This document shows, one piece after another, positions 877-49,425 of a DNA stretch of 54,778 bases (position 1 is the stretch's first letter; every line of letters begins with the position of its first letter). Both the position numbers and the translations under genes were made by a program. The DNA comes from a virus. The notes beneath the pieces were generated by a model. That model was not told where the DNA came from. It saw only the letters and a list, made by a program, of their open reading frames with translations, and searched no databases. Location of the stretch: positions 1-54,778 of the IMG/VR virus record IMGVR_UViG_3300034051_000394, one strand, 5' to 3'.

Positions 877-3783
877 TTAATATGCGTTCCCACTATTATA
901 TTGTATCTCTATAGAACTTACATCACTATAAGAATAACTATATATAACTTCACCTATAATAGGTGTATAAAATTTTTCATTTTTTATTCTATATATAAAT
1001 TTATCACCAGCGGACGCATTTGTCAATGTTACGAATATTTTATAAGTTTTTTCACCTACAACATAATCAGTTACACTACTATATTGTATATTCTGAAAAT
1101 TAGTATCTGAAGGATCAGCAAACTCTATAGTAAATTTACCATTAACACTTATAGGTGCAGAATTTATTGACCAACTTATTGCAGGTGTATTTGTTGGAAC
1201 TAATCCATTTATATTTGAGTTGGGTACATAGAAGGCTTCTATAATATCCCCAACATTTAATGTATCTTCTAAGATAATTCTTCTATCGTTAGATGTAGAC
1301 GAATAGTACTCTATACCTTTTGAAAGTATTGATCCATTTATCGATAAAACTATATCACTTGCAGGGGAAGACACTAAATAAAACTCATATTTATTTTCAG
1401 TCGTATTATAAAAAACTCTATCATTTGTAGTTTGGGTACCTGTGGATCCACTAACTATCGGTGAGGTGATTGAATATACGTCCCCATATAAATTATTAGA
1501 TGTACCATTATCCACATACGCGTATGTCAATATTTGTTTATCTAAAGGTGTGAACAATAACTGTACATAAGGTGTTGAAGCCGTTGTGTTTGCACTATAC
1601 TCTATACCTTTGGCTAAGACTGAACCATTATAACTAACTATTGGGTCAGATAAACCGTTAACTACATATTGTGTAGTACCACTATTAGTGAATACTGTTT
1701 GTACTACTAATGTATCTATACTAGCAGGTGCAGGTGCAACTGAATTATCAAACAACGGTTTTTCTGCCTCAAATAGACTAATAAAATACCAATCAGTTTC
1801 AGGATAATATAAACCATAAAGAATACCTCTTTTATATGTATCTATATTATTCTTCCTAACTTCTTGTTGTTTCGCTAAAAAAGTATTTACATTGTACTGC
1901 CAATAAGATTTAATTAAAAATTCTCCTTCACCTAAATTAACTGAAGGTAAATATATTGTATTACCAGTAGTACCTGTTAGATTTTCATAACCCACACTAA
2001 AATTGTATAATGCAGAATTAGTAAACCCACTATTTGTTTGATCATATTTATAAACCTCACCATAATAAGATAAATTTTTAGATTCAACAACATCGTTAAC
2101 ATTATTTACTAAAAGGTTAAATAAATACCCTAATCTACCACTATTAATTAGATAAACAAATCTATCAGGTGATAATGTTTTATTTGTAATTACATTAGGT
2201 AATCCCCATGTGGATGTTGTTCCAGTCACACCCGAAGTTGTTAAACTAAATCCATTTTCTTCAAAATTACATAGTACTCCTAAACCGTTTGGTCTGTGTA
2301 TCATATGTAAATAATCTTTACCGTAATCTGCAACATATATTTTTTCATCAGGACCCATTTGTAACGCACCTAAACTAGCACCACTTAATTCCGCAACCTT
2401 TATAATATTCTCTTCAATTTTTGTAGATGAACTATAAGATAAATCAAACTGATATATTTCTTCTCCTGCACCTTCCGAAATATAAATTTTAGAAGAGTCA
2501 GAAGAAAATTCTAAACCGTATGGTCCAACATTATATGAAAAACCTGTAATTGTTATTAAATTACTTAAAGTACCAGCAGAAGAATCAAAATCGAAAATGT
2601 CTACAATATCTTCATCATATAATAACGATACTAACTTAGTACCATCAGGTGAAGTTTTCATATATCCTCTCATAGTATTATGAGTACTACCAATACTTGT
2701 TACAACTGGACCACTCAACCCACTTTGTGTTACTAAGTAGGAATAAAAATTTGTATTTCCACTTGTATGTGTTATAACCCAATAATCCTCACCATTACTA
2801 TGTAAACACGATGTAACTTTTTCTGTGGTAGGTGTAGTGAGTAATTTTATATTCTTACTTTCTATTTCTCCGTTACCACTTTGTAAATCCATATTTACAA
2901 TAGAGTATTGAAACCCATTTGTTGATCCACTGTAATCTGTTACAAATATAAAATACTTATTTGTGTTCGGTCTAGGTATTATAATTGATGATTGTGTAGA
3001 TGTTCCTGAACTAGAAAGTCCTGTACCATTAACCATAACAGTATTACCACTCGTATAAACTGTTTGCCCATTCGTATAGAATAGTAAACTACCTTCTTTA
3101 TTAGATATCGAAGATACCCCTTCTTGAGATACTACCGATCCACTAATGGATGTTGGTGTCCCTCCAGATTGTATAGGGTTAAAAGTGATTCCTGCGTTGG
3201 TACCAAAATACCAATTATAATTTAATCTATCATATGTGTAACCCGTATATGTTACTGGACCACAAAGTGTGTCTCCAGTAGATGTTGGGATTTTTCTAGT
3301 TCCACTTATCGTAACTTGTGGAAAATCAAAACTATCGAAATCTGTTCTCTCTATATGTGAGTACTTATAACTATTACTTAAAGGTTCCCAACCAAAATTT
3401 TCAGTTTCACCCCTACTAGATAATAAACTATATTTTTTACCTTTATCTATATACAATAAGTCATTATTCGGTTCTACCGATATAACCATATTACTATCAC
3501 TACTGTTACCCGATAAAGAAAATAATAAGTATTTTTCAGTTAAAAGGTTTGAGAAAATTGTATTACCGTAACTTTGTGGGTTACTTAACACATATAAATT
3601 TTTTGCATTAGATAAATCTAATGGTAGGAATAATGCAGTTTCCGTTTCAATAAAAGTAGTTAAAGATGAAGCATTAAAATGCACATCAGTAGATACTCTT
3701 ACATCCACAGGTGATTCTATTTCACTTATCACATTTGCCGAAACAGAAATTGGATTTTCTATTTTACCTCTTATACTAGCCAT
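877..3783 (-). CDS. Tail/baseplate protein with a Bacteroidota gliding-protein-type beta-propeller
   Basis: This 968-residue protein starts at ATG 3783. Residues about 1-185 show no family I recognise. Residues about 190-535 closely follow the N-terminal propeller of secreted Bacteroidota gliding/type-9-secretion proteins: NWYFGTNAGITF, then GSLLFYTNGQTVY, STQSSIIIPRPN, DYWVITH, MKTSPDGTKL, YGLEFSSDSSKIYIS and a closing WGLPNVI. Residues about 690-860 hold two copies of a phage beta-module of the type NGSxLxKGIEY, about 50 residues, then GDxIxxxYV, as seen in many tail fibres. The sequence therefore joins a host-type adhesive propeller to phage tail modules. It sits between the giant gp7-like protein and a further structural gene. 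A role in host contact is likely but inferred. No type-9 C-terminal sorting domain or signal peptide is seen, which fits a virion protein rather than a secreted one. Confidence 0.75.
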   Translation of the reverse strand: MASIRGKIENPISVSANVISEIESPVDVRVSTDVHFNASSLTTFIETETALFLPLDLSNAKNLYVLSNPQSYGNTIFSNLLTEKYLLFSLSGNSSDSNMVISVEPNNDLLYIDKGKKYSLLSSRGETENFGWEPLSNSYKYSHIERTDFDSFDFPQVTISGTRKIPTSTGDTLCGPVTYTGYTYDRLNYNWYFGTNAGITFNPIQSGGTPTSISGSVVSQEGVSSISNKEGSLLFYTNGQTVYTSGNTVMVNGTGLSSSGTSTQSSIIIPRPNTNKYFIFVTDYSGSTNGFQYSIVNMDLQSGNGEIESKNIKLLTTPTTEKVTSCLHSNGEDYWVITHTSGNTNFYSYLVTQSGLSGPVVTSIGSTHNTMRGYMKTSPDGTKLVSLLYDEDIVDIFDFDSSAGTLSNLITITGFSYNVGPYGLEFSSDSSKIYISEGAGEEIYQFDLSYSSSTKIEENIIKVAELSGASLGALQMGPDEKIYVADYGKDYLHMIHRPNGLGVLCNFEENGFSLTTSGVTGTTSTWGLPNVITNKTLSPDRFVYLINSGRLGYLFNLLVNNVNDVVESKNLSYYGEVYKYDQTNSGFTNSALYNFSVGYENLTGTTGNTIYLPSVNLGEGEFLIKSYWQYNVNTFLAKQQEVRKNNIDTYKRGILYGLYYPETDWYFISLFEAEKPLFDNSVAPAPASIDTLVVQTVFTNSGTTQYVVNGLSDPIVSYNGSVLAKGIEYSANTTASTPYVQLLFTPLDKQILTYAYVDNGTSNNLYGDVYSITSPIVSGSTGTQTTNDRVFYNTTENKYEFYLVSSPASDIVLSINGSILSKGIEYYSSTSNDRRIILEDTLNVGDIIEAFYVPNSNINGLVPTNTPAISWSINSAPISVNGKFTIEFADPSDTNFQNIQYSSVTDYVVGEKTYKIFVTLTNASAGDKFIYRIKNEKFYTPIIGEVIYSYSYSDVSSIEIQYNSGNAY

Positions 3784-3806: not shown

Positions 3807-6800
3807 TTATTCTGTTGTACAATTATGTATTAATTCTTGATTATAAAAATCACCACCATCTTCCCAATCAGGATCCCCAATTATAGTCACATTACCTTCA
3901 TATTCATTTGTATCATATATCTGTGTTATGAATACTGTATTATAATCACTTATTAATGTATTAGATGCCCTAACACATTTATATATTTTATCTCTTAAAA
4001 TTGCAATATAATTTCTTTGTCTTTCATATAGTGTAGTACCATATATAAAGTTATTTAAATTATTTTCTGCCTGTAGTAAAGTTTCAGTAAGTCCACTACA
4101 ACTCATAAAGTTACTATAGTAATTTTGTTGTTGTAACAAATATTTAGTTTCTTCAGCACTTAAGTCAGTATATAAAGTACTTAATTGTGTTTCTAAATTA
4201 TTTAGATTATTAGTTAATAATGTAATTTGTGCACTAACCGAATCAATCTGTGATTGTAAATTAGGGGTATCAAAATCCTGTAAATTAAGTGAACACAATA
4301 TTTTATTTTGTGCAGCAATATTATCTTTTACTAACTCAATTTGTATATTTTTGATTCTTATTTGATTTTTAATATTGTTTATAGTATCATTAGTAGGGAA
4401 CAATGGTATTTGTTCTACTAATGAATAAACATCTTCAGAACCAATACTAAAATCGGTGTACGCACTTAATGGACAACTATTTGTTGTCTCAATAAGATTT
4501 AAACTATATCTTTTATATTGGAATTTATTTTGATCAAAAATAGTATTTCTATAAATTTTACCTGAATTGTCACAACCTTCCCAAATTGTAGTTGCAGGTA
4601 CCACTTGTTCTAATAAATTTAACCAATAATCACCAATTTTATCCATAAATTCAAACATAGTGTTATATGTGAATTTACCAGATAATTCTTTACCACAATT
4701 ATTAGCATTTAAATAAAGTTCGTAGAATAATCTTAGAAGTGGGTAATCACTTATAGTTTGTCTACTCTTTACATCTATTAAATTTGATTGAACTAATTGA
4801 TCAAATACGTCCTTAACATTAATTTCTGACGGTTGTATATCTAAATAATCCAATGGATTAATACAGATATTATATGAACTACCACTATAATACCCATTAG
4901 AACATTCATTTAAAGTTCCACAATATTCACAGTCTCCTTCACAAACACTACATCCGTCAATTGGTTTCCATAGACATTTTGATAAACTACTATCCCACTG
5001 ATAGTTTTTACCTAAACCTAAACCTTCAGTACCCTCACCATTAAGTAAATTATTTATTGTTTTACAACATTCTTCGTTTACAAAGGTTGTTTGGTTAAAT
5101 GTTTGTGCAGTTACCCCACTTAAAACTTGTACTAATGTGCCACCAGTATATGGTGTACTACCACTATAGATATATGATTCGTAAACTGATATTGTACCAT
5201 CATAATTTTCAGTTATTAAACCAAATAAATTATTTGTTTGTTGGTTATTATTAATAACCAATGTATCAGTCCCACAATTATTGTTCTGAATTTCAAAATT
5301 AGAAAGACCATAACCTAAATTTAATAAATCATAATATGTCGCATTTAATGAATTATTATAATCAGAAGTTAAGGTATAATATTGATTTTTTAATTCAGTA
5401 ACTTGATTTTCTAAGATATCAGTAAACGTTGAACAACTAAATGTTAACCCTGTTGTAGATGCAGATAAGTCTAATGTATAATCTAATAATGTGGTAGAAC
5501 TGTATACCATTCCACTATACACTACCGTACTGGCAGATGTACAACTTGTTGGACAACCTCCATCACAGTCTATATTTTTCCAATAATTAAATACGTCACA
5601 CTCTATTGCCTTAGATGGGTCAATACTAAATGTAGTATTTTTAACATTTATTATTAAATCTGAGTGATTAACATCGTAGTTAGTATATCTATATTCTAAA
5701 TCTGTCCACAATCTTTCTTCAGGTGTACCCATTTTAACTACTTGATAGTTATTGGTGGATGCGGTATTACAAGGACCGTCAGGATATACTGTTTCAGTAA
5801 TAATTCCTTGATCAGTATAAACCCAAGATTTTTTATTATCAATAACACAACTTAATTGTGGTATTAAACAATTATTTAATGAAACTAATCTTTCTGTTTT
5901 ACAATCAGATACATTAATAATAATGTTATCTATAAGTAAACATACTGAACAGTTATAATTTTCTATTTCTACTGAGAAGAAAAATTCTTTGTTAGGGTAT
6001 AATCTTCTTAAGTCATCACATACACATTCTGGTATAGTGAAATTAAATGTACCCCAATTAGGTTCAAATAAATTAGAATTATAAGGTGTATTAGAATTAG
6101 ATAGTTCTGTAAATACTGAATCTTGAATTAATGCAATATCTTGTTCACTACCATCTAAAATAATACCACTATACCCAACTGAAGGATCAAATTCCCAAAA
6201 AGGGTTTACCGATTGAGTGTAGGGTAAGTATGTAAGATTTGAGTCTACTTGATTTGTATAAACTAAATTATTATTATCAACAAATAATTTAAAATTAAGT
6301 TTTAAATTATCAATTAATGTTAAATAACTTTCAGTATTATTAATATAATTATTGTACTGTGTTAATATTTCAGAATACCAATCATCATATAAAGATTCAG
6401 TAATATCAGTAATTTCTAAAAGGTTTGTTTCAAGTAATTCTAAAGTATTATTTAAATAATTCAATAATTCTTGAGTACAACAAGGATTAGGTATTGTGGG
6501 ATCACAAGGACTAGGTACTTCAGCCAAATCTTGTGTGATAACATCTACCACTTGTTCTGTAGTAAAAGTAGTTTTATTTACATTAGTTTCATTTATAGTA
6601 ATGTCATATATTAACTCATCTTTTTGTTGTATTAAACTACTAACTTGTGTTTGATTTTTTTGTAATTCAATTGTTAATGTTATTTTTTCACTATCCGTTA
6701 AATCAATATAACCTTCAACATTTGTAATTTCTTTAGGTGTAACACCCAGTATTTTTGCAGTTTCGTTTATAGTATTTTTATAGTCATTTTGATCCATTTG

Positions 6801-9800
6801 GGAAGTTTGTGTAACCTCATTCCCAATAATCAAATAATTTTTAGATAATGTATTTATGTTATCTTGAACTATACCGATTTCTTTAATCAACTGATTAATT
6901 AACTTCTGATTGTTTTGGAATTTAGCGTTTACTAATTCTTGTTCTAATGTATTGTTTTTATTACAATTACTTAATAATTCTAAATATATTTTCTTTTGTG
7001 CCGATAATCTTTCATTTTCTGTTTTAACACAGTTATTGAATAAATCCCTATCTCTTAAAGTAATTTCTTTTTTATCACCATAAATTTGTGTAGTACAGTA
7101 TCCCTCAACATTGAATGAGTCTATAGCGTAAATTTCATTTTCATAAACTATACAATCTAAAGGTAATGTAACATCTGACAACGCTTTATTAATTACGTCA
7201 ATTTGACTATTTTTTTGGTTTATCTGTACATCAATTGCAGTTAAATTAGTTTTTAATTTTGTATTTTCAGTAACTAAAAGATCAACTTGTGTATTCTTTT
7301 CCGAAATTACGGTATTTTTTTGTTTTTCTGAATTAATAATTTCATTTGTTAAAACCGCCTTAGTCGGTAAGTTTTCAGGAGTTTCTTCCACTACACAGTT
7401 TGACTCATATTGCGAAATTACGCCATTAATACCTTCAATAGTATTCTTATAGTCCATATATAAATTAGTCCAAAGCCCATACTCTAATGGTATTTCTAAC
7501 ATACAAATATTTGTAGTAGTAATGTATTTATTAAAATCTATAAAACAACCAGGTTCTACTATATTAAGGAAATAACAGTCCCCAATACTCCTTTCTAATT
7601 CTTTTTTGATAGAATTTAAGTTAGTACCATAAGTAATCAATTCACTATAATCAAAATCAAATGTATTTAATAACTGACTATTAGGTGTTGTTATAATTTC
7701 TCCATATGTGTTAGTAATATTTCTAACCCAATTAAAGTTTACGGAATACGATTCTTTCAATTCGGTGATGTTACCACCAACGGCATTACAACATTGTAAA
7801 ATAGGTTCATTTTGTTGTGTGTTTTGCCATATAACATACTCTTCAGTAACATCTTCATTATCGTTAAAATTATTTTCTAATAATGAACTATCTTCTTCAC
7901 TATTTGTAAATGAAACAAAGTTCATACAATACAAACTATTAAGTGTGTTGTCGTGTATAATCGCAGGATAACAATCTATTCTAGTGACGCACTCTTTCAA
8001 ATTCTCTGTCTGATATTTTATCATATAGTCAAAAGAGAAATCAACTTTACAAGAACAATCTGTTACTTCAGGTAATTTAAAACCTGACCAAGCCTCACTC
8101 GCAAAAACTATCGATACATTATCTAGACTACCACAACCAATGTGGTTTGGATCTACTACCGCATTTGTAATGGAATTAGGGTTTTCAGTATATAAATTAC
8201 CATTATCTACATAAGGTATCAAATTATTAGTAATTGTATCAATATAAAATGAACCATAGGTATATTGAGTGAATAATGCTCCCACTGATTGGTATAATTG
8301 TGCCAATTGACCCGTTGCGTTCCAATCTAATACAAAGTCGTTATAATATTCTGTTGGTGTAAAACTAACTCTACCGTATTCATCTATTGTATGTACCACC
8401 CAATTTGTTGGATCCATAAAATTTGGATCTTCAAATAATGAATTCAATATTGTTTCATAACAATCTATACAATCTTGACCAACACCTTTAACTATAATTG
8501 CTTCTTCTAAACAATCATCGTAAATTGTTGTTGAATAATATTGCGGTACTTCACCTATTGGGTTTTGTAATTCCACGTACCCAATTGTTGTATCATATAA
8601 TGAAGGTGGTATTACAAAAGTTGAACTTAGATTAGGTGGTACTATTTCATGATAGATTTGAATTTGTTCTTGTATTGCGTTTTGTTCAATTTGGAAATTA
8701 ATTTTTTTAAATGTTGCACCTACTAAAGGTGTCTCTACAGTTTCTTTACCACTACCTACCATACCTATTGGATTAGTATTTGGTACTGTGGTACCTGCAA
8801 GACCAATAACTGGTGTTGAGGGTAAAGGAGGTACTGAAGGGTTGGTAAATGGAACAGGTTCACCTTTATCGGGTGTAGTACTAACTACGTTCCCATTAGT
8901 TCCTGATGTACCATCTAATTGTGTCCCTAAATCGTTAATATATTCATCTATATCATTTGTTGTCGATGATGGTGTAGTTAAAGAATTACCTGAAGTACAA
9001 ACAATATAACTTACATTGTTTTCTTCTATTAATTGGTAATTATACCCATACCACGCACAACATTCAGGACTACTAATTATTGTAGTTAATTCACAATTTA
9101 CTTCTTGAAAATATGTATAAAAATCTTTTGGTAATATATTTGTAGTAATCTTATTTAAGTAGGATTGAACTGATCCGCCCTGACCTCCCGTTATAGTGTT
9201 ATTAGATAAGTTAGTAACCCCAATGAAATAAACTTGTCCCGCCTTTGTTAACTGATAACATTTATTATTAAATGAATAAACGTTACTCGGCATTGTATTA
9301 TTATTTAATTCAAATACTATAATACCGTTTGCTAATGTGTCTACTGGATTACCTACACATGGTGCATTTTTAGAACAGTACTCAACCACTCTACATTCTT
9401 CATTAGTATATGTAACATATTGTCCTCCTTCAGAAGTACAACAAGACGCAAATTCATTAAATGATACTTTAGTACCACCAGAATTTACAAAATATATGTA
9501 TGGATCACAAGTTACTGCACTTAATGATGAACAATCAATTTTAAAGTTATCTTGTGGTAATTCATTAACACAAATTTGTAGTGTTTGGTTGATATCACAA
9601 TTTTCACTAGAAACTTCTAAAAGTGCATTGTTTTGTGCCACTGTATAGTTGTTTTGAATTACATACCATTCTGGCGAATACGCTAAATAACTATTTTGTA
9701 GTATCTGTTGTTGGTAATCTAAGTATGCCTCTTCCGCAGCCTCAAATTGTTGTTGGAATGTGGTTTTACCGTCATTCTGTAAAGGAGTTTCAATAATACT

Positions 9801-11861
9801 ATAATTGACATCAACACAGTCTTCAATAAACTGATATGTGTTAATTGCAGGATTAAAAGTTAATTGTGTAGTAAAAAATTCAGTTGTCGCTGAAGGTACG
9901 CTATTAAATAACCCATGATTATAATTTAAAAAATAATTATCCCCTAAAGTTTTTGCAGTAACGGTTACTGTTGGTTCCGAATTAAAGTTTGGTATAAAAC
10001 ATCTACTAAAGTATTGTAAATACTCACTACCACCATCATAAGCCCCAACGTGTGGGTTATTACCATCCAAATTAGTTATTACATTAGAACCATAAGTCTC
10101 TCTATACCAACCACCCGCTTTTTGGAAATACATTTCAGTATAATCATTCTCTACTAATTGTCCAGTGGTTTGATCGATATAATTTGTAATAACCAAATCA
10201 CCGTTTATTGGTGGTAATGGAAAACCATTATCATCATATGGTATATTATTAAAATTTACTTCACCTGTGTAAATATATAATAATTTTTTTATCTCTTCAA
10301 CATCTAAAGGTTTATCTACTATTACAATATATTCATTAAAATTAACTAATGATTCAGGTGCACCGATAAATCTAAATAAAAATTCTACCGCCTTTCTAGT
10401 TCCCTTACTCTTCCATAACCAAGCAATATTTAATATCAATCTTCTATATAGTTCGATATCAATTTCACTTTGTGTCATATTAGTAGAAGTACCACTAAAT
10501 TCACCACCACCATTACTAGGTAAATATAATTTACTAAATGTGTTGTCCGTTATAAATGTTACAGGATCTAACCCTAACATATATGCCAAATCTTTGACTA
10601 ACGCATCAGGTACATTATTTTTCTTGTCGTATGTAACAACGTGAGCCAATTTAATTCCATTAATATATTTTTTAATATAATCAAATTCAACCCCATATAT
10701 CCTCAATAATTTAGTTGCCTTCTCACCATTTAAAACGTAGTCATCTCCATCCGCCCTAGGTACGGTATCAAAACTATTTATCGCTTCAGTAGTATACTTT
10801 CTTATAATGATATCAGTCCTAGAATTATCTAAGTCTTCACCTAACTGATTCATTTTATCTAAGAAAGCAATATAGTAACTATCGAAAAAGTTTAGATTAT
10901 ATCCATCTTCTAATATTGGGAAATCAAATAATTTCTTAGATGTTAGTACCACACCATTGTCAGTGAATTTTGTACTATAAAATTGAGATGTATACTTTGG
11001 GTATATATTTCTATCTAATAAATTTAATTGTAATTCATTTAAACTTGAAAAGAATTTTTCTATTTCAGATTCATTTGGTTTAATAAAATAGGGTATTGAA
11101 CTATCTATAGGTGTACTTAAAAAAGATATTTGTGGTAGAATTAAACCTGTTAATTCTGGAAAAGGATTACCCTCAACAACTAATTCTATTTCAGAGTTAG
11201 TTTTTTGTGTTGCAGGTGTTATACTTTTTATATTTTTTCTTATACCATTATGTTCAATTACATATGAAGTATTTTTTAATGTGAAATTTCTTAACGGATT
11301 TTCCGTTTGTTCTGTAGGTGTGAATTGTGCATCTACAGTATATTTTATATTGTATGGATTAACAAAGAAATTACTATTTACCTTAAATGTAGATTCGTCC
11401 GCAGATAAATCATACACATAATCTGTAATATTATTACCCGTAACACTACCAACCTTATTGTCTACATATATTGCCGCAGGATAATTATTTTGTATCTCAA
11501 TTAAGGATGCCCTAATTAATTCTTTTGATGATCCATACCAAACATAACTTATTGGATTTGTTAGATCTAAATTAAGTTTTGTTTTTAAATTTTTTTGTAT
11601 TTCTAATTGTGGGGTATTTTCAGTTACTATATCATCTAATGTAAAAAATTTAGACTTAGTACCCTGCGTAAATAATACGTTTGGTTTCGGATCTAAATTT
11701 ACTGATATAGAAAAATTACCATTAGTGAAAAGCGTAGTCCCCCCTTCACTAGTGAGTTGGAAACCTACTAAGTCGGGACTGAAATTCCTATATTCAATGT
11801 TATCATTGAAAAATATTCTTTTAGCGTACCCTGCAATTTTTATCCTTTTATTGTTCGCCAT
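3807..11861 (-). CDS. Giant baseplate protein with gp7/P2 gpI-like segment
   Basis: At 2684 residues this is the largest gene in the window. Near residues 460-500 is LYRRLILNIAWLWKSKGT followed by RKAVEFLFRFIGAPE. This resembles the KGT-x-AIExxL-x-x-xG motif of P2 gpI/Mu gp48 tail proteins, which correspond to T4 gp7 and TssG in the wedge. It follows a domain with AYMLGLDPVTF, as gpI proteins do. T4 gp7 is about 1030 residues, so most of this protein is extra. The remainder has beta-rich stretches, at least two coiled coils (residues about 1500-1560 and 2490-2590) and many paired cysteines, including CSVCEGDCEYC (DNA about 4940). It starts at ATG 11861, 7 bases after the upstream stop. With gp6, gp25 and gp53-like proteins also present, a wedge role is reasonable. 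The gpI match is by eye; a long fibre-like protein with a gpI-like anchor is the alternative reading. Confidence 0.6.
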   Translation of the reverse strand: MANNKRIKIAGYAKRIFFNDNIEYRNFSPDLVGFQLTSEGGTTLFTNGNFSISVNLDPKPNVLFTQGTKSKFFTLDDIVTENTPQLEIQKNLKTKLNLDLTNPISYVWYGSSKELIRASLIEIQNNYPAAIYVDNKVGSVTGNNITDYVYDLSADESTFKVNSNFFVNPYNIKYTVDAQFTPTEQTENPLRNFTLKNTSYVIEHNGIRKNIKSITPATQKTNSEIELVVEGNPFPELTGLILPQISFLSTPIDSSIPYFIKPNESEIEKFFSSLNELQLNLLDRNIYPKYTSQFYSTKFTDNGVVLTSKKLFDFPILEDGYNLNFFDSYYIAFLDKMNQLGEDLDNSRTDIIIRKYTTEAINSFDTVPRADGDDYVLNGEKATKLLRIYGVEFDYIKKYINGIKLAHVVTYDKKNNVPDALVKDLAYMLGLDPVTFITDNTFSKLYLPSNGGGEFSGTSTNMTQSEIDIELYRRLILNIAWLWKSKGTRKAVEFLFRFIGAPESLVNFNEYIVIVDKPLDVEEIKKLLYIYTGEVNFNNIPYDDNGFPLPPINGDLVITNYIDQTTGQLVENDYTEMYFQKAGGWYRETYGSNVITNLDGNNPHVGAYDGGSEYLQYFSRCFIPNFNSEPTVTVTAKTLGDNYFLNYNHGLFNSVPSATTEFFTTQLTFNPAINTYQFIEDCVDVNYSIIETPLQNDGKTTFQQQFEAAEEAYLDYQQQILQNSYLAYSPEWYVIQNNYTVAQNNALLEVSSENCDINQTLQICVNELPQDNFKIDCSSLSAVTCDPYIYFVNSGGTKVSFNEFASCCTSEGGQYVTYTNEECRVVEYCSKNAPCVGNPVDTLANGIIVFELNNNTMPSNVYSFNNKCYQLTKAGQVYFIGVTNLSNNTITGGQGGSVQSYLNKITTNILPKDFYTYFQEVNCELTTIISSPECCAWYGYNYQLIEENNVSYIVCTSGNSLTTPSSTTNDIDEYINDLGTQLDGTSGTNGNVVSTTPDKGEPVPFTNPSVPPLPSTPVIGLAGTTVPNTNPIGMVGSGKETVETPLVGATFKKINFQIEQNAIQEQIQIYHEIVPPNLSSTFVIPPSLYDTTIGYVELQNPIGEVPQYYSTTIYDDCLEEAIIVKGVGQDCIDCYETILNSLFEDPNFMDPTNWVVHTIDEYGRVSFTPTEYYNDFVLDWNATGQLAQLYQSVGALFTQYTYGSFYIDTITNNLIPYVDNGNLYTENPNSITNAVVDPNHIGCGSLDNVSIVFASEAWSGFKLPEVTDCSCKVDFSFDYMIKYQTENLKECVTRIDCYPAIIHDNTLNSLYCMNFVSFTNSEEDSSLLENNFNDNEDVTEEYVIWQNTQQNEPILQCCNAVGGNITELKESYSVNFNWVRNITNTYGEIITTPNSQLLNTFDFDYSELITYGTNLNSIKKELERSIGDCYFLNIVEPGCFIDFNKYITTTNICMLEIPLEYGLWTNLYMDYKNTIEGINGVISQYESNCVVEETPENLPTKAVLTNEIINSEKQKNTVISEKNTQVDLLVTENTKLKTNLTAIDVQINQKNSQIDVINKALSDVTLPLDCIVYENEIYAIDSFNVEGYCTTQIYGDKKEITLRDRDLFNNCVKTENERLSAQKKIYLELLSNCNKNNTLEQELVNAKFQNNQKLINQLIKEIGIVQDNINTLSKNYLIIGNEVTQTSQMDQNDYKNTINETAKILGVTPKEITNVEGYIDLTDSEKITLTIELQKNQTQVSSLIQQKDELIYDITINETNVNKTTFTTEQVVDVITQDLAEVPSPCDPTIPNPCCTQELLNYLNNTLELLETNLLEITDITESLYDDWYSEILTQYNNYINNTESYLTLIDNLKLNFKLFVDNNNLVYTNQVDSNLTYLPYTQSVNPFWEFDPSVGYSGIILDGSEQDIALIQDSVFTELSNSNTPYNSNLFEPNWGTFNFTIPECVCDDLRRLYPNKEFFFSVEIENYNCSVCLLIDNIIINVSDCKTERLVSLNNCLIPQLSCVIDNKKSWVYTDQGIITETVYPDGPCNTASTNNYQVVKMGTPEERLWTDLEYRYTNYDVNHSDLIINVKNTTFSIDPSKAIECDVFNYWKNIDCDGGCPTSCTSASTVVYSGMVYSSTTLLDYTLDLSASTTGLTFSCSTFTDILENQVTELKNQYYTLTSDYNNSLNATYYDLLNLGYGLSNFEIQNNNCGTDTLVINNNQQTNNLFGLITENYDGTISVYESYIYSGSTPYTGGTLVQVLSGVTAQTFNQTTFVNEECCKTINNLLNGEGTEGLGLGKNYQWDSSLSKCLWKPIDGCSVCEGDCEYCGTLNECSNGYYSGSSYNICINPLDYLDIQPSEINVKDVFDQLVQSNLIDVKSRQTISDYPLLRLFYELYLNANNCGKELSGKFTYNTMFEFMDKIGDYWLNLLEQVVPATTIWEGCDNSGKIYRNTIFDQNKFQYKRYSLNLIETTNSCPLSAYTDFSIGSEDVYSLVEQIPLFPTNDTINNIKNQIRIKNIQIELVKDNIAAQNKILCSLNLQDFDTPNLQSQIDSVSAQITLLTNNLNNLETQLSTLYTDLSAEETKYLLQQQNYYSNFMSCSGLTETLLQAENNLNNFIYGTTLYERQRNYIAILRDKIYKCVRASNTLISDYNTVFITQIYDTNEYEGNVTIIGDPDWEDGGDFYNQELIHNCTTE

Positions 11862-11868
11862 TTACGTT

Positions 11869-12771
11869 TTAAAAATTAGTTATATCTGTAAAATCTTTTG
11901 TTGGGTCTATGGTAAATTTCTGTTCCCTAACTTCATACAATGGTTTACCTGTAAACTGATCTTTAACTTCATATAAGTTGTATTGTCTGTAAATCTGATT
12001 ACCAAAATTGTATATAGTATAAATACCATCTTCCAAAGATTTTGTTTGGTTAGAGAATAGTGCGTATGCCAATGTTTCTTCATCGAATTCCACCATTTCT
12101 ATTTCCAACATAACTGGATTAAAAAACGTATTTGTTATGATTACATCCTGAAGAGGATTACCTATAAAAGGTATTGCGTTTGGTTTAACTGAAGGTGCCG
12201 AAGAAGGCGATACCGTACAAAATAAACTAGTAGAGTTGTCGTTAAATGTATATGCTTGTGACGCATTTGAGTTACCCTGATTTTGTGATATAGGTAAAGC
12301 CCTATTATTAGACGTTATAATTCTAAATAAATTTTGAATTTTATCTTGTCCCGTACCCGTTTGTTCTTTTAAATATTCTATCCGATAACCAACTAAATTA
12401 CCATTTTCAAACCTATTTTGTAATTCCAAAGGTATTTGATTGATGTCGAATACAATACCTTTTACATCTTGATTATCTATTAATACGCCACAATCTTGTA
12501 TTGTTGTTCTTATTTGTTTAGGTCGTATTACTATACTATAAAACCCTTTAGAACCAAATACTGATGTTGGTAATTTTAATGTATATAATCCACCAAATAT
12601 TTCATTAACGTTGTTTGGATTATTTGCAGGAATCAATACCTCTGCAGGGTCTAATGATTGCAGTTCTACTGTAGTTAATGATTCCCTATTGGGTGTATAA
12701 CTGTAAAATATTTCAACGTCATCTATTGATACATCTGCTGGTCTTATAGTTCCGTAATTTCCTGTTGCCAT
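11869..12771 (-). CDS. Unrecognised structural protein, baseplate cluster
   Basis: A 300-residue protein beginning MATGNYGTIRPADVSIDDVE. It is acidic-to-neutral, rich in Asn, Thr and Pro, with no signal peptide, membrane segment or coiled coil visible. The N-terminal third has a beta pattern (IFGGLYTLKLPTSVFGSKGF, then YSIVIRPKQI). Its stop is 7 bases from the start of the giant gp7-like gene, and the 291-residue gene's stop lies 10 bases upstream of its own start, so all are probably cotranscribed. I cannot assign a family. Position suggests a small wedge or peripheral baseplate subunit, in the place where T4 has gp8 to gp11. Confidence 0.5.
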   Translation of the reverse strand: MATGNYGTIRPADVSIDDVEIFYSYTPNRESLTTVELQSLDPAEVLIPANNPNNVNEIFGGLYTLKLPTSVFGSKGFYSIVIRPKQIRTTIQDCGVLIDNQDVKGIVFDINQIPLELQNRFENGNLVGYRIEYLKEQTGTGQDKIQNLFRIITSNNRALPISQNQGNSNASQAYTFNDNSTSLFCTVSPSSAPSVKPNAIPFIGNPLQDVIITNTFFNPVMLEIEMVEFDEETLAYALFSNQTKSLEDGIYTIYNFGNQIYRQYNLYEVKDQFTGKPLYEVREQKFTIDPTKDFTDITNF

Positions 12772-21392: not shown

Positions 21393-23222
21393 TTATGACG
21401 TAGAAATTGTCACCTTTATGTCTTTATTTGGGTATTTAATCTCAAACATACCATTAGGTTGTCCGAATAAAGTATATTTACCCAATAAATCAATTTGTCT
21501 TGTAGTCTCATCAATATAAGGTTGTGCAATCTCATTTAATGAATATTTACCATTTTCATTAACTTTATTAAAAACCCTTAAATCTGTTACGTTAAGTACG
21601 CCACCTACATTATTAATGTTTTCTATAAGTTGAGATACATAGATGTTATCACCCATTTCCCATTTATTGATGTCAAAATAATCTGTAACACTACTGATAA
21701 CTCCTGCAATAATATCTCCTCTAGGAATTGACTTCTCTGCGAATATATCTATTTCAAAACCTAAGTTAATAACTCTACCGTTTTTAACTGTAACGTAATC
21801 ATTAATCATCCTATAGTCCGCCAAATATTCCGCAATATTTTGTTTCAGTGTTGATGTTGCCTCAGTGGTTAATTTAGAATTAGAATCTAACGCCAATATT
21901 GAAACGTTAATTTTATTTCTTTCTTCCCATACACCCGTTCTAAATGGTACACCAAATTTACCAGGCATTAATGGTATTCTAGACTGATAATCTTTAATAG
22001 TTACACATCTATCTTGTGCGGAGAAATTATATCTAACTAAATTTCTAACCTCATCAATAGAAGGTTCTTCTTTACCACCTAATGCTGGTATTGGGTTATT
22101 AACAGATATACTATTTCTAATTATTCTATTAAGATCTGAAGAGTCACCATTTATAACTACGTTTATCGTACCCAAAGTGTTTATTATATTAACACCTATA
22201 TTACTATCTTCTCCACCACCTACTCTATATCTTACATAAATGGTGTTATTGGTTGGTGGTATTTGACCCAAAGATAAATTATTAACTGTTTTACCAATTC
22301 TCTCAATTTGTCCCTTACATCCAACAAAACTATTTAATTCTGAAGTATCTGCGTCACCCGCACCAAATATAATTTTACAGAAACCATTGTCTGTAAATTC
22401 TTTAATAAATCTACGAGGTGCGTTTAACCATTTACCTACAGATATTCCCTCTCTATCTGATATTGTATTATCATCTATAACGTAAACCTCCGATTGTGCC
22501 AATGCAGGTACCTCATACCAACTTAAATTAAAGTCATTAAATTCTTCTTCTGTTGGTTGGTTTACTAAATTGGTTCCTTCTTTAGTAAGGATATTTTCTA
22601 TAGAAAGTACGTTGTCTTCAGGTAAAACAATTTCAAAAAATGGTCTATAATCACTTCTCGTTAATGTTCTTTTAAAAGTTTTAGTAATACCATTTAACAT
22701 TATTTCTCTTTTAGTAAGTGTATAGTTTTGAATTATACCACTTCCATCTATGTTTGGTACTATTAGTCTGTTTGGTATCCCACCAGTCGTAAATGGTGAT
22801 GCAAAATCAGAATCTTCCATTAATTCAAAGACTTTACCCGCACCAGTGGCTTGTGAACCCTTTAAAATTTTTGGTGCGTAACTTATATCAAATGTATCAC
22901 CTTTAACAGGTATATTGGTTACTGTCCAGTCTACTATCGTAATACTCGGTCTTTTACCTGGTACATTTAATCCGAAAGTTCTTGCCAACTCTAAAAGTGA
23001 AGATCTTTCCTGTGCGTAACTAATTTGTGTTTCATTAAACATTCTATCAGTATGGAATGATAACATATCACCAACCGCAGCATTTAATTCCAATAACATC
23101 ATACCTACAGACGCATCATTAAAATCTGAGAATATTTCTGGATAATATTTTTGTATGAACTCTATTAATTGTTGTCTAACATCTGAGAAGTTCCTAGCGT
23201 TGTAATCTATTTTTTTAGCCAT
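21393..23222 (-). CDS. gp6: Baseplate wedge protein gp6-like (baseplate J family)
   Basis: This 609-residue protein matches the N-terminal pattern of T4 gp6/P2 gpJ wedge proteins: a helical opening (FSDVRQQLIEFIQKYYPEIF), then DFNDASVGMMLLELNAAVGD, then a helix with FHTDRMFNETQISYAQERSS and LELARTFGLNVPGKRPS. The middle contains the J-type beta domain (IYVRYRVGGGEDSNIGVN), and the C-terminus the repeated alpha/beta module with RNLVRYNFSAQDRCVTIKDY. T4 gp6 is about 660 residues, so length fits. Gp6 dimers clamp the wedge together with gp7 and gp53 and trigger baseplate rearrangement. The gp25-like gene lies 2 bases upstream, reproducing the common gp25-gp6 order of contractile tails. Confidence 0.88.
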   Translation of the reverse strand: MAKKIDYNARNFSDVRQQLIEFIQKYYPEIFSDFNDASVGMMLLELNAAVGDMLSFHTDRMFNETQISYAQERSSLLELARTFGLNVPGKRPSITIVDWTVTNIPVKGDTFDISYAPKILKGSQATGAGKVFELMEDSDFASPFTTGGIPNRLIVPNIDGSGIIQNYTLTKREIMLNGITKTFKRTLTRSDYRPFFEIVLPEDNVLSIENILTKEGTNLVNQPTEEEFNDFNLSWYEVPALAQSEVYVIDDNTISDREGISVGKWLNAPRRFIKEFTDNGFCKIIFGAGDADTSELNSFVGCKGQIERIGKTVNNLSLGQIPPTNNTIYVRYRVGGGEDSNIGVNIINTLGTINVVINGDSSDLNRIIRNSISVNNPIPALGGKEEPSIDEVRNLVRYNFSAQDRCVTIKDYQSRIPLMPGKFGVPFRTGVWEERNKINVSILALDSNSKLTTEATSTLKQNIAEYLADYRMINDYVTVKNGRVINLGFEIDIFAEKSIPRGDIIAGVISSVTDYFDINKWEMGDNIYVSQLIENINNVGGVLNVTDLRVFNKVNENGKYSLNEIAQPYIDETTRQIDLLGKYTLFGQPNGMFEIKYPNKDIKVTISTS

Positions 23223-23224
23223 AT

Positions 23225-23608
23225 TTAAAATGTTAATGTAATTGTATCTGTACTTGTGAAAGTCCCTTCAGTAACTGTATAGGTTAATTCCACAATAATT
23301 AATTCTTCGATGGCATCATTTCTAAATGATATATCATTAATCAATAAATTAGGTATAAACCTAATAATAGTTTGATTTAAATTGTCCTTAATTTGTTCAT
23401 GAGTTATTTCATCATTGGGTTCAAAGATGAACTTTTTAAGGTCACTACCAAATTCTGGTAGATATAACCTTTCTCCCTTATTAGTTAACAATAAATGTAA
23501 TAAGTCTGCCCTAATAGCGTCCTTATCAGTTTTGTTCATTTTAAAATAGAAACCATTGTCACTATCTCTAAAAGGAAAATCAATATTTATATAATTAGTC
23601 TTTGCCAT
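23225..23608 (-). CDS. gp25: Baseplate wedge protein gp25-like
   Basis: The 127-residue length and layout match the gp25/gpW (TssE) family. The N-terminal INIDFPFRDSDNGFYFKMNK is followed by a helix with DLLHLLLTNKGERLYLPEFG, the family hallmark, then SDLKKFIFEPND and a C-terminal helix-strand segment (LIVELTYTVTEG). Gp25 joins the wedge to the first sheath ring and nucleates sheath assembly. Its stop is 2 bases from the gp6 gene start, so the two are surely cotranscribed. ATG 23608 is chosen; a TATTTAT element lies just upstream. Confidence 0.92.
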   Translation of the reverse strand: MAKTNYINIDFPFRDSDNGFYFKMNKTDKDAIRADLLHLLLTNKGERLYLPEFGSDLKKFIFEPNDEITHEQIKDNLNQTIIRFIPNLLINDISFRNDAIEELIIVELTYTVTEGTFTSTDTITLTF

Positions 23609-25757: not shown

Positions 25758-25789
25758 TTTGGCAGTTAAAAAAATATATACTATATTTG
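25758..25789 (+). promoter_or_regulatory. Bacteroidota-type promoter of the metzincin gene
   Basis: TTTG at 25758-25761 and TATATTTG at 25782-25789 are separated by exactly 20 bases, fitting the Bacteroidota housekeeping-sigma consensus (TTTG/TTG at -33, TAnnTTTG at -7). The start would fall near 25795, about 16 bases before ATG 25811. A TATAAATA string follows at 25793-25800. Confidence 0.7.
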
Positions 25790-25810
25790 TTATATAAATA
25801 CTTAACAACT

Positions 25811-26368
25811 ATGAAAAAAATACTTTTTATCCTTTTATTTTTAAATAGTATTTTATGTTTTTCTCAGAAAAACTTTACTATGGATGAGTTTAATAATATA
25901 ACCGATAATGGTGAAAAATGGAAGACTGATATAAAAATTTTTATGTATGGTGATTATCCTATAGAGGATTCGTTATCAGTTATTAAAAGTATAGAATTAT
26001 TTAATAAATTAATAGAAACTGTGGATATATCAATAGTTTCCACTATTGAATTGTCTAATAGTGTGATTTATTTTATAACTGACGATGAATTCATTAAATT
26101 ATTTAAATGGAGTGAGAAAGATATAAAAAATTGTACAGGTATAACATATACATCACATGTTGATGATAGAATTGTTAAGAGTAAAATTCATATTGATATT
26201 GTTGAGTGTAGAAAACATCAATGTACACCTATTACAATTAGACATGAGATGTTTCATATGTTGGGTTTTGATCATCAAGATAATGAAAAAAATACCATCC
26301 TTAAAAGTCATAGTATTGAATTCACTGAAAAGGATAGGGAAATGATTTCTTTATTATATAAAAAATAA
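25811..26368 (+). CDS. Secreted metzincin-type zinc metalloprotease (antisense cassette)
   Basis: This is the only plus-strand gene in the window. I place the start at ATG 25811 (185 codons); an earlier in-frame TTG at 25787 lies inside the promoter -7 box. The first 19 residues are a classic flavobacterial signal peptide (KKILFILLFLNSILCFSQ), with probable cleavage after FSQ; the cysteine lacks a good lipobox. Residues 145-155 read HEMFHMLGFDH, the complete HExxHxxGxxH zinc motif of metzincins. The downstream helix EFTEKDREMISLLY fits the end of a matrixin-like domain (S/TxxDxxxIxxLY). The methionine expected in the Met-turn is replaced by Ile/Leu (NTILKS). It has its own promoter and a terminator, so it behaves as an independent moron. 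Function is probably cleavage of an extracytoplasmic or outside protein; the substrate is unknown. Confidence 0.8.
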   Translation: MKKILFILLFLNSILCFSQKNFTMDEFNNITDNGEKWKTDIKIFMYGDYPIEDSLSVIKSIELFNKLIETVDISIVSTIELSNSVIYFITDDEFIKLFKWSEKDIKNCTGITYTSHVDDRIVKSKIHIDIVECRKHQCTPITIRHEMFHMLGFDHQDNEKNTILKSHSIEFTEKDREMISLLYKK

Positions 26369-48651: not shown

Positions 48652-49425
48652 TCAGAGTTCAGGCCAGAAAAAAGTCGAGTTGAATCTAAGAAAGGTTTCT
48701 ACGGACTCTCCCCCCTGAGTCCTTGCAGTAGTTTTAAAATCTAATCCTGGTGTTATCTCATCAATATACTTTCTTAAAGATCTAGAATCTATAATTGGTA
48801 ATTTTTTAATTATATTTGAGATTTTTATTTTATCTCTTTCACCATCAATGGATTTTATTTGTTGTTCTAAATTTAAAATGATTTTGTTAGACACACCATC
48901 AGGATTTCTTTTTGAATCTTCTTTATCTCTAATATCAACTACCTCCTCATCTTTTCCAGTTAAAAGTGAAAAAGTTATCCTTTTTTTAGTTTTTGGTAAA
49001 ACGTAGTCAAATTCACCATTTTCGTCAGATTTTACAGTTAATTTTTTTTGTTTGAGAGTAGATAAATTAATTGTACCCTCAACGATTTCACCCAAACTTG
49101 GACTATAAACTAATTGATTGTATTCTTCCCCAAATGCAGTAACCCTTAAATAAATCATCAGTGCGGTTCTATCACCAACTAATAAATCTTCTACGTTAAA
49201 ACCTAAATCTTTAACTTTTCTTTTTAATAGTACATCTATTATTTTACCACCACTAGAAATATTAGGCGAAGTTAATATGGATTCATCCATTGCAGTTAGA
49301 TATTCTACCTTAACTGACTTAACTTTATTTTTGTATAGGATACCTTGTGAAGGTAATTCTATAATATCATACGGTGTCCTATATTCCTCTGGAACATAAT
49401 CTGGACTTAATTGGTTATCACTCAT
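48652..49425 (-). CDS. Baseplate hub/tail assembly protein, T4 gp26-like
   Basis: A 257-residue protein with IIELPSQGILYKN near residue 20, VEYLTAMDESILTSPNISSG followed by KIIDVLLKRKV, then DLLVGDRTALMIYLRVTAFG and EEYNQLVYSPSLGE. This set (LPSkGxxY; ltakEExILtn; gDrxxlxxxLRixxyG) is that of T4-like gp26 hub proteins. The Cys pairs of some cyanophage gp26 proteins are absent (YSP in place of CPxC). The C-terminus ends FFWPEL. A small gene follows 7 bases later. In T4, gp26 acts in hub assembly with gp51 and the tape measure gp29, which is two genes away here. Start ATG 49425. Confidence 0.75.
   Translation of the reverse strand: MSDNQLSPDYVPEEYRTPYDIIELPSQGILYKNKVKSVKVEYLTAMDESILTSPNISSGGKIIDVLLKRKVKDLGFNVEDLLVGDRTALMIYLRVTAFGEEYNQLVYSPSLGEIVEGTINLSTLKQKKLTVKSDENGEFDYVLPKTKKRITFSLLTGKDEEVVDIRDKEDSKRNPDGVSNKIILNLEQQIKSIDGERDKIKISNIIKKLPIIDSRSLRKYIDEITPGLDFKTTARTQGGESVETFLRFNSTFFWPEL

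Follow-up and report, generated by a model that had tools for sequence, protein, structure and literature searches.

The window, a stretch of 54,778 nucleotides covering positions 1 to 54,778 of IMG/VR virus record IMGVR_UViG_3300034051_000394, carries near its start a gene whose product, w01, combines a propeller resembling those of secreted Bacteroidota proteins with modules of phage type. This raises the question whether the propeller was captured from a host-type surface protein, and what it may do for the phage that carries it.

The propeller-bearing protein

The open reading frame of w01 lies on the minus strand, and the plus strand at the same positions contains many stops (Table 1). 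Searches of Pfam, PHROGs and NCBIfam and single-sequence searches of the PDB gave no usable family for w01, and the model of the full-length structure, computed with 8 close homologues in the alignment, had a pLDDT of 32. The earlier note on this locus had placed a propeller and two NGSxLxKGIEY motifs in one protein, and all the motifs that it quoted are present in the right order. The propeller contains NWYFGTNAGITF (residues 190-201), GSLLFYTNGQTV (231-242), SPDGTKL (378-384) and WGLPN (526-530), and the two NGSxLxKGIEY motifs are the only ones in any protein of the window. We recognised no signal peptide by eye in w01, as its N-terminus (MASIRGKIENPISVSANV...) has no hydrophobic stretch. 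There was also no NCBIfam match to the T9SS sorting domains TIGR04183 and TIGR04131 in w01, whereas bacterial homologues of the propeller do match them.

Table 1. Features of the propeller gene and its neighbourhood (positions are those of the window)
Feature	Position	Strand	Basis or remark
Propeller-bearing tail-region protein w01, 968 aa	877..3783	-	ORF; IMG/VR relatives of equal architecture
N-terminal segment, residues 1-125	3409..3783	-	varies most; mean pairwise identity 39%
Junction element, residues 146-166, includes TDFDSFDFPQVTISGTRKIP	3286..3348	-	common to propeller-less orthologues; hhalign prob 88, E 3e-6
Beta-propeller domain of Bacteroidota secreted-protein type, residues 188-535	2179..3222	-	homology and fold
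C-terminal phage module, residues 552-968	880..2130	-	wide large-phage protein family; hhalign E 1.9e-86
First NGSxLxKGIEY motif VSYNGSVLAKGIEY, residues 716-729	1597..1638	-	motif search
Second NGSxLxKGIEY motif LSINGSILSKGIEY, residues 813-826	1306..1347	-	motif search
2684-aa protein, directly upstream	3807..11861	-	homologues next to the gene in every propeller-bearing relative examined
300-aa protein	11869..12771	-	conserved between propeller-bearing and propeller-less phages
gp6-like baseplate wedge protein	21393..23222	-	PHROG 219 E 1e-18; synteny
gp25-like baseplate wedge protein	23225..23608	-	PHROG 261 E 3e-20

Using pattern searches, we found an equal architecture on 29 IMG/VR contigs of up to 254 kb, with one propeller gene in every contig checked. 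No relative of w01 was found among named phages. The match on contig L038 was rejected as false, since the pattern there falls in the last part of a primase-like protein of 932 aa.

Homology and predicted fold of the propeller

The search with residues 188-535 against Bacteroidota genomes resulted in 181 bacterial stretches, with identities of 35-41% over nearly the whole domain; 80 of them were kept, and for these the E values range from 1e-58 to 1e-77. The best bacterial match has an identity of about 40% across some 345 aa. When 50 sequences were aligned jointly, the propeller of the window showed 36-44% identity to the bacterial rows from end to end. The propeller profile had matches in 68 of the 396 sampled Bacteroidota genomes (1-5 copies each, E values down to 1e-143), and the matches of this region are not restricted to phages. 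Given these E values, the span of the alignment and the number of genomes, the likeness is far beyond chance. No Pfam or NCBIfam family was found for the propeller itself.

The bacterial proteins typically have a signal peptide directly followed by the propeller. Stand-alone proteins of Hymenobacter consist of these two parts only, and their ends agree with the domain limits that we set in w01. Among ten bacterial homologues, six passed the cutoff for the type A sorting domain (TIGR04183) and two that for type B (TIGR04131), one was just under a sorting-domain cutoff and one had no sorting domain. The propeller therefore belongs to the secreted T9SS type of Bacteroidota, as had been suggested from its motifs. 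The label 'gliding' attached to it at the same time was too specific, since most homologues have an ordinary type A secretion tail, and we found no known gliding function for the propeller. The phage and bacterial proteins thus have in common a propeller of about 345 residues that can be aligned over its whole length; the difference is that the bacterial proteins begin with a signal peptide and usually end in a T9SS tail, whereas the phage protein lacks both and has phage modules fused to the domain.

AlphaFold, run on the joint alignment, predicted a beta-propeller with 27 strands (pLDDT 94.4, pTM 0.93), the fold expected in the earlier note. The Foldseek matches of this model are propellers as well, with TM-scores mostly of 0.4-0.6, so the register and number of blades are not settled; the roughly 27 strands of the model would be compatible with seven blades. 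When PDB sequences were searched with a profile, the matches were overwhelmingly propeller proteins, the top one being an archaeal surface-layer protein.

The C-terminal module and the junction

The profile of the C-terminal module had no match in any of the 396 Bacteroidota genomes, and the same search detected the known carriers that served as positive control. A contig assigned to a Flavobacteriales MAG, L039, also carries the module and for this reason seems to be phage DNA binned with the MAG. Using the 747-aa protein encoded downstream of the propeller gene in relatives as a query, we found contig L311, in which the corresponding slot holds a 489-aa protein without a propeller. This protein is 32% identical to residues 476-968 of w01 (E 1e-50), and the genes on either side encode homologues of w02, the 300-aa protein and the 747-aa protein. 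With a profile headed by L311, 101 stretches were retrieved, from which 80 loci were kept. No propeller was detected in 61 of these loci (L315-L375, on contigs of up to 369 kb), even with filters off. C-terminal modules with and without the propeller were aligned by hhalign with the E value given in Table 1. The same program aligned the element just N-terminal of the junction, which reads SSDxCIFxxPxFxxSGASKI in the propeller-less proteins, with RTDFDSFDFPQVTISGTRKI of w01. The propeller-less core proteins of about 475 aa (L311, L315-L353) thus share the junction element and the C-terminal module with w01, and L311 shares also the flanking genes, and the difference lies in the propeller.

Depending on the lineage, the junction contains nothing, about 150 aa, about 400 aa with a PA14-like domain, or the propeller. 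Domains of the PA14 type frequently bind carbohydrates. In L035 (1218-aa protein, ORF 7476-11129), a PA14-like insert of 257 aa is located inside the propeller, at residues 476-732. It is homologous to the inserts of about 400 aa at the main junction of other phages (E 1e-21 to 1e-30), and its match to Pfam PA14 is weak (E 1.9e-4, just under cutoff). As related phages have either nothing or another domain, often of a sugar-binding type, at this point, we suggest that phages exchange surface-binding modules at the junction. The capture of a host-type domain, proposed in the earlier note from the letters alone, is now better supported than its author could know, because there are propeller-less orthologues with a matching junction.

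Origin of the propeller

In the unrooted tree of the C-terminal module, the propeller is confined to one clade (support 100/100) and a single change explains its distribution. Because the tree has no root, the direction of this change has to be inferred, and parsimony together with the much greater diversity of the propeller in bacteria suggests a gain in the clade of the window rather than a loss elsewhere. The opposite history, in which the ancestor of the core family already had the propeller and the other lineages lost it, also takes one change on this tree, but it appears rather improbable to us, as several other lineages have inserts of variable length at the same junction and a broad bacterial family carries the propeller outside phages. 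In the propeller tree, the sequences from the phage family of the window group together in a single clade (100/100), surrounded by a bush of bacterial branches. The backbone of this tree is weak, so the donor clade cannot be named.

The closest named phage with a Bacteroidota host, judged by gp6, is Flavobacterium phage immuto (27% identity). The host of the phage is probably a member of Bacteroidota, judging only from the source of the domain, the MAG contig and this distant Flavobacterium phage.

A second family of phage propellers was observed on viral contigs of up to 261 kb (L234-L247 and L250, e.g. L235:5923-7299). Its members are small secreted proteins with a signal peptide, the same propeller and often PKD, have no visible T9SS tail, adjoin other genes with signal peptides and form a separate clade. 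A common origin of the two phage families was not rejected by the AU test (p 0.395). More distant viral propellers occur on L254 (1567-12384), L255 and L253 (5983-7497), and among these one protein has 3606 aa and two propeller stretches, while another has 505 aa and lacks a signal peptide.

Baseplate context

In each of the nine contigs where both genes could be located, the gp6-like gene and the propeller gene share a strand, with the former about 18-21 kb upstream. This synteny, with a phage-specific module encoded in a baseplate gene cluster, bears out the context of a phage tail protein that had been claimed for the gene. A weak match to a T4 baseplate protein was found at 48652-49425 (PF12322, E 8.8e-5, just under cutoff), and other genes of the window encode a DnaB-like helicase, a UvsX-like recombinase, an ssDNA-binding protein and a ribonucleotide reductase. 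Downstream of the propeller gene, relatives encode the 747-aa protein, a 431-aa protein with a similar N-terminus, a RuvC-like resolvase and a primase.

Identities to the 300-aa protein are 91% in G004, 60% in L311 and 51-55% in the G409 group. In G409 itself, a contig of 261 kb, the 300-aa protein is 53% and gp6 46% identical to those of the window. The slot of the propeller gene in the G409 group contains an SprB-repeat protein (PF13573, E 1.4e-6, 28.3 bits with a cutoff of 28) and two further proteins. The SprB repeat is named after a Flavobacterium gliding adhesin. With the propeller here and the SprB repeat there, two lineages have host-surface-type modules in one slot. The SprB-repeat protein of G409 is located at L260:2768-5062, and its P0002-like relatives were observed in the majority of contigs L296-L313, which are related.

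Function of the propeller

Taking the established homology, predicted fold, architecture, junction, synteny and single gain or loss on the tree together, we consider w01 to be probably a peripheral baseplate or tail protein that displays exchangeable binding modules, one of which was captured from a secreted protein of Bacteroidota. The phages are large and uncultured, with a T4-type baseplate, and w01 would be a conserved peripheral protein of the baseplate or tail. Its core consists of a short N-terminal part and the C-terminal module of about 415 residues, and the insertion point between them is occupied by the Bacteroidota-type propeller in the clade of the window and is empty or holds other modules, PA14-like ones included, elsewhere. 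The core may anchor w01 in the virion, the inserted module may be displayed outward, and it may bind a glycan or surface protein that is conserved in the host envelope or its matrix, which would aid adsorption.

The display of a binding module is argued for by the exchange of domains, by the PA14-like alternative and by two precedents among phage propellers. The receptor-binding protein Gp45 of Staphylococcus phage phi11 has a beta-propeller within a multidomain baseplate protein (PMC4901313), the placement that we propose for w01, but that propeller is five-bladed, has no sequence match to ours and binds a Gram-positive host via GlcNAc of wall teichoic acid. In Pseudomonas phage phiKZ, a large contractile phage, gp131C has a seven-bladed propeller at the periphery of the baseplate, with a function described as unproven (PMC4901313). 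It differs in that its propeller is a C-terminal domain with no sequence match found and not shown to derive from a host protein family. The succession of an empty junction, a PA14-like insert and the propeller provides an unusually clear natural series for the gain of host-type domains by tail proteins of large phages. It also connects adhesion by phages with the T9SS-exported propellers, a poorly understood family, and results on binding or from cryo-EM on one side would inform the other.

The rate of evolution of the propeller bears on this reading. Mean pairwise identity is 68% in the propeller and 65% in the 62-residue stretch directly before it, compared with 39% in residues 1-125 and about 52% in the C-terminal module. 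No other large region of w01 is as conserved as the propeller, which evolves slowest and lacks the fast divergence typical of receptor-binding domains. Such domains usually vary most, and divergence faster than that of structural neighbours is usual for them but not required. With this unusual conservation, either the target of the propeller is probably conserved or its role is structural; of the two we prefer a conserved surface target that the propeller binds, and see the structural role as its chief rival.

According to this rival, the propeller would be a scaffold or assembly hub of the baseplate rather than an adhesin, acquired in one event and from then on retained for virion assembly. 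The propeller is fixed in 29 of the 29 members found and in the most distant relatives is about as conserved as the gp6 wedge, and propellers occur also in tail tubes and nozzles of short-tailed phages (T7 and SU10 papers). Nevertheless, we hold a scaffold to be unlikely, as many phages with the same core protein manage without a propeller and an unrelated PA14-like domain occurs at the same point, so that the site tolerates exchange, and as the propeller of L035 accommodates an insert of 257 aa.

More specific versions of a display module find less favour. It is unlikely that, on top of a socket for exchangeable surface-binding modules in the conserved baseplate protein of large Bacteroidota phages, the propeller copied by this clade from a host-exported protein engages the partner of that protein by surface mimicry. 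Docking to a partner of the T9SS or gliding machinery, or competition with host proteins for such a partner, is in our opinion very unlikely. The sorting domain by which T9SS recognises its cargo is at the C-terminus and is missing from the phage protein, and the propeller has no known partner. Still, 36-44% identity to T9SS cargo has been kept, the corresponding gene slot of related phages holds SprB repeats, and a place in the gliding machinery has been proposed for phage receptors of Flavobacterium (PMC7345892). An enzyme acting on the envelope or capsule, lactonase-like or glycan-degrading, is the most improbable function, since the weak lactonase/6-phosphogluconolactonase matches (Pfam PF10282 E 0.03, NCBIfam E 0.009) are under curated cutoffs and, despite the structural similarity of the model to lactonases, are explained by the common propeller fold.

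Other genes near the slot

In contig L300, a gene for a GlcNAc-type glycosyltransferase is located inside the tail adhesin slot (L300:4571-5770, PF11397 E 1e-67), and genes in the same slot of L302 and L307 encode proteins with N-termini similar to that of the L300 protein. The glycosyltransferase might glycosylate the tail proteins. In the window, a lone plus-strand gene at 25787-26368 encodes a secreted protein with the sequence HEMFHMLGFDH, a metzincin-like zinc protease motif, and G004 has a plus-strand gene with a signal peptide at the equivalent position.
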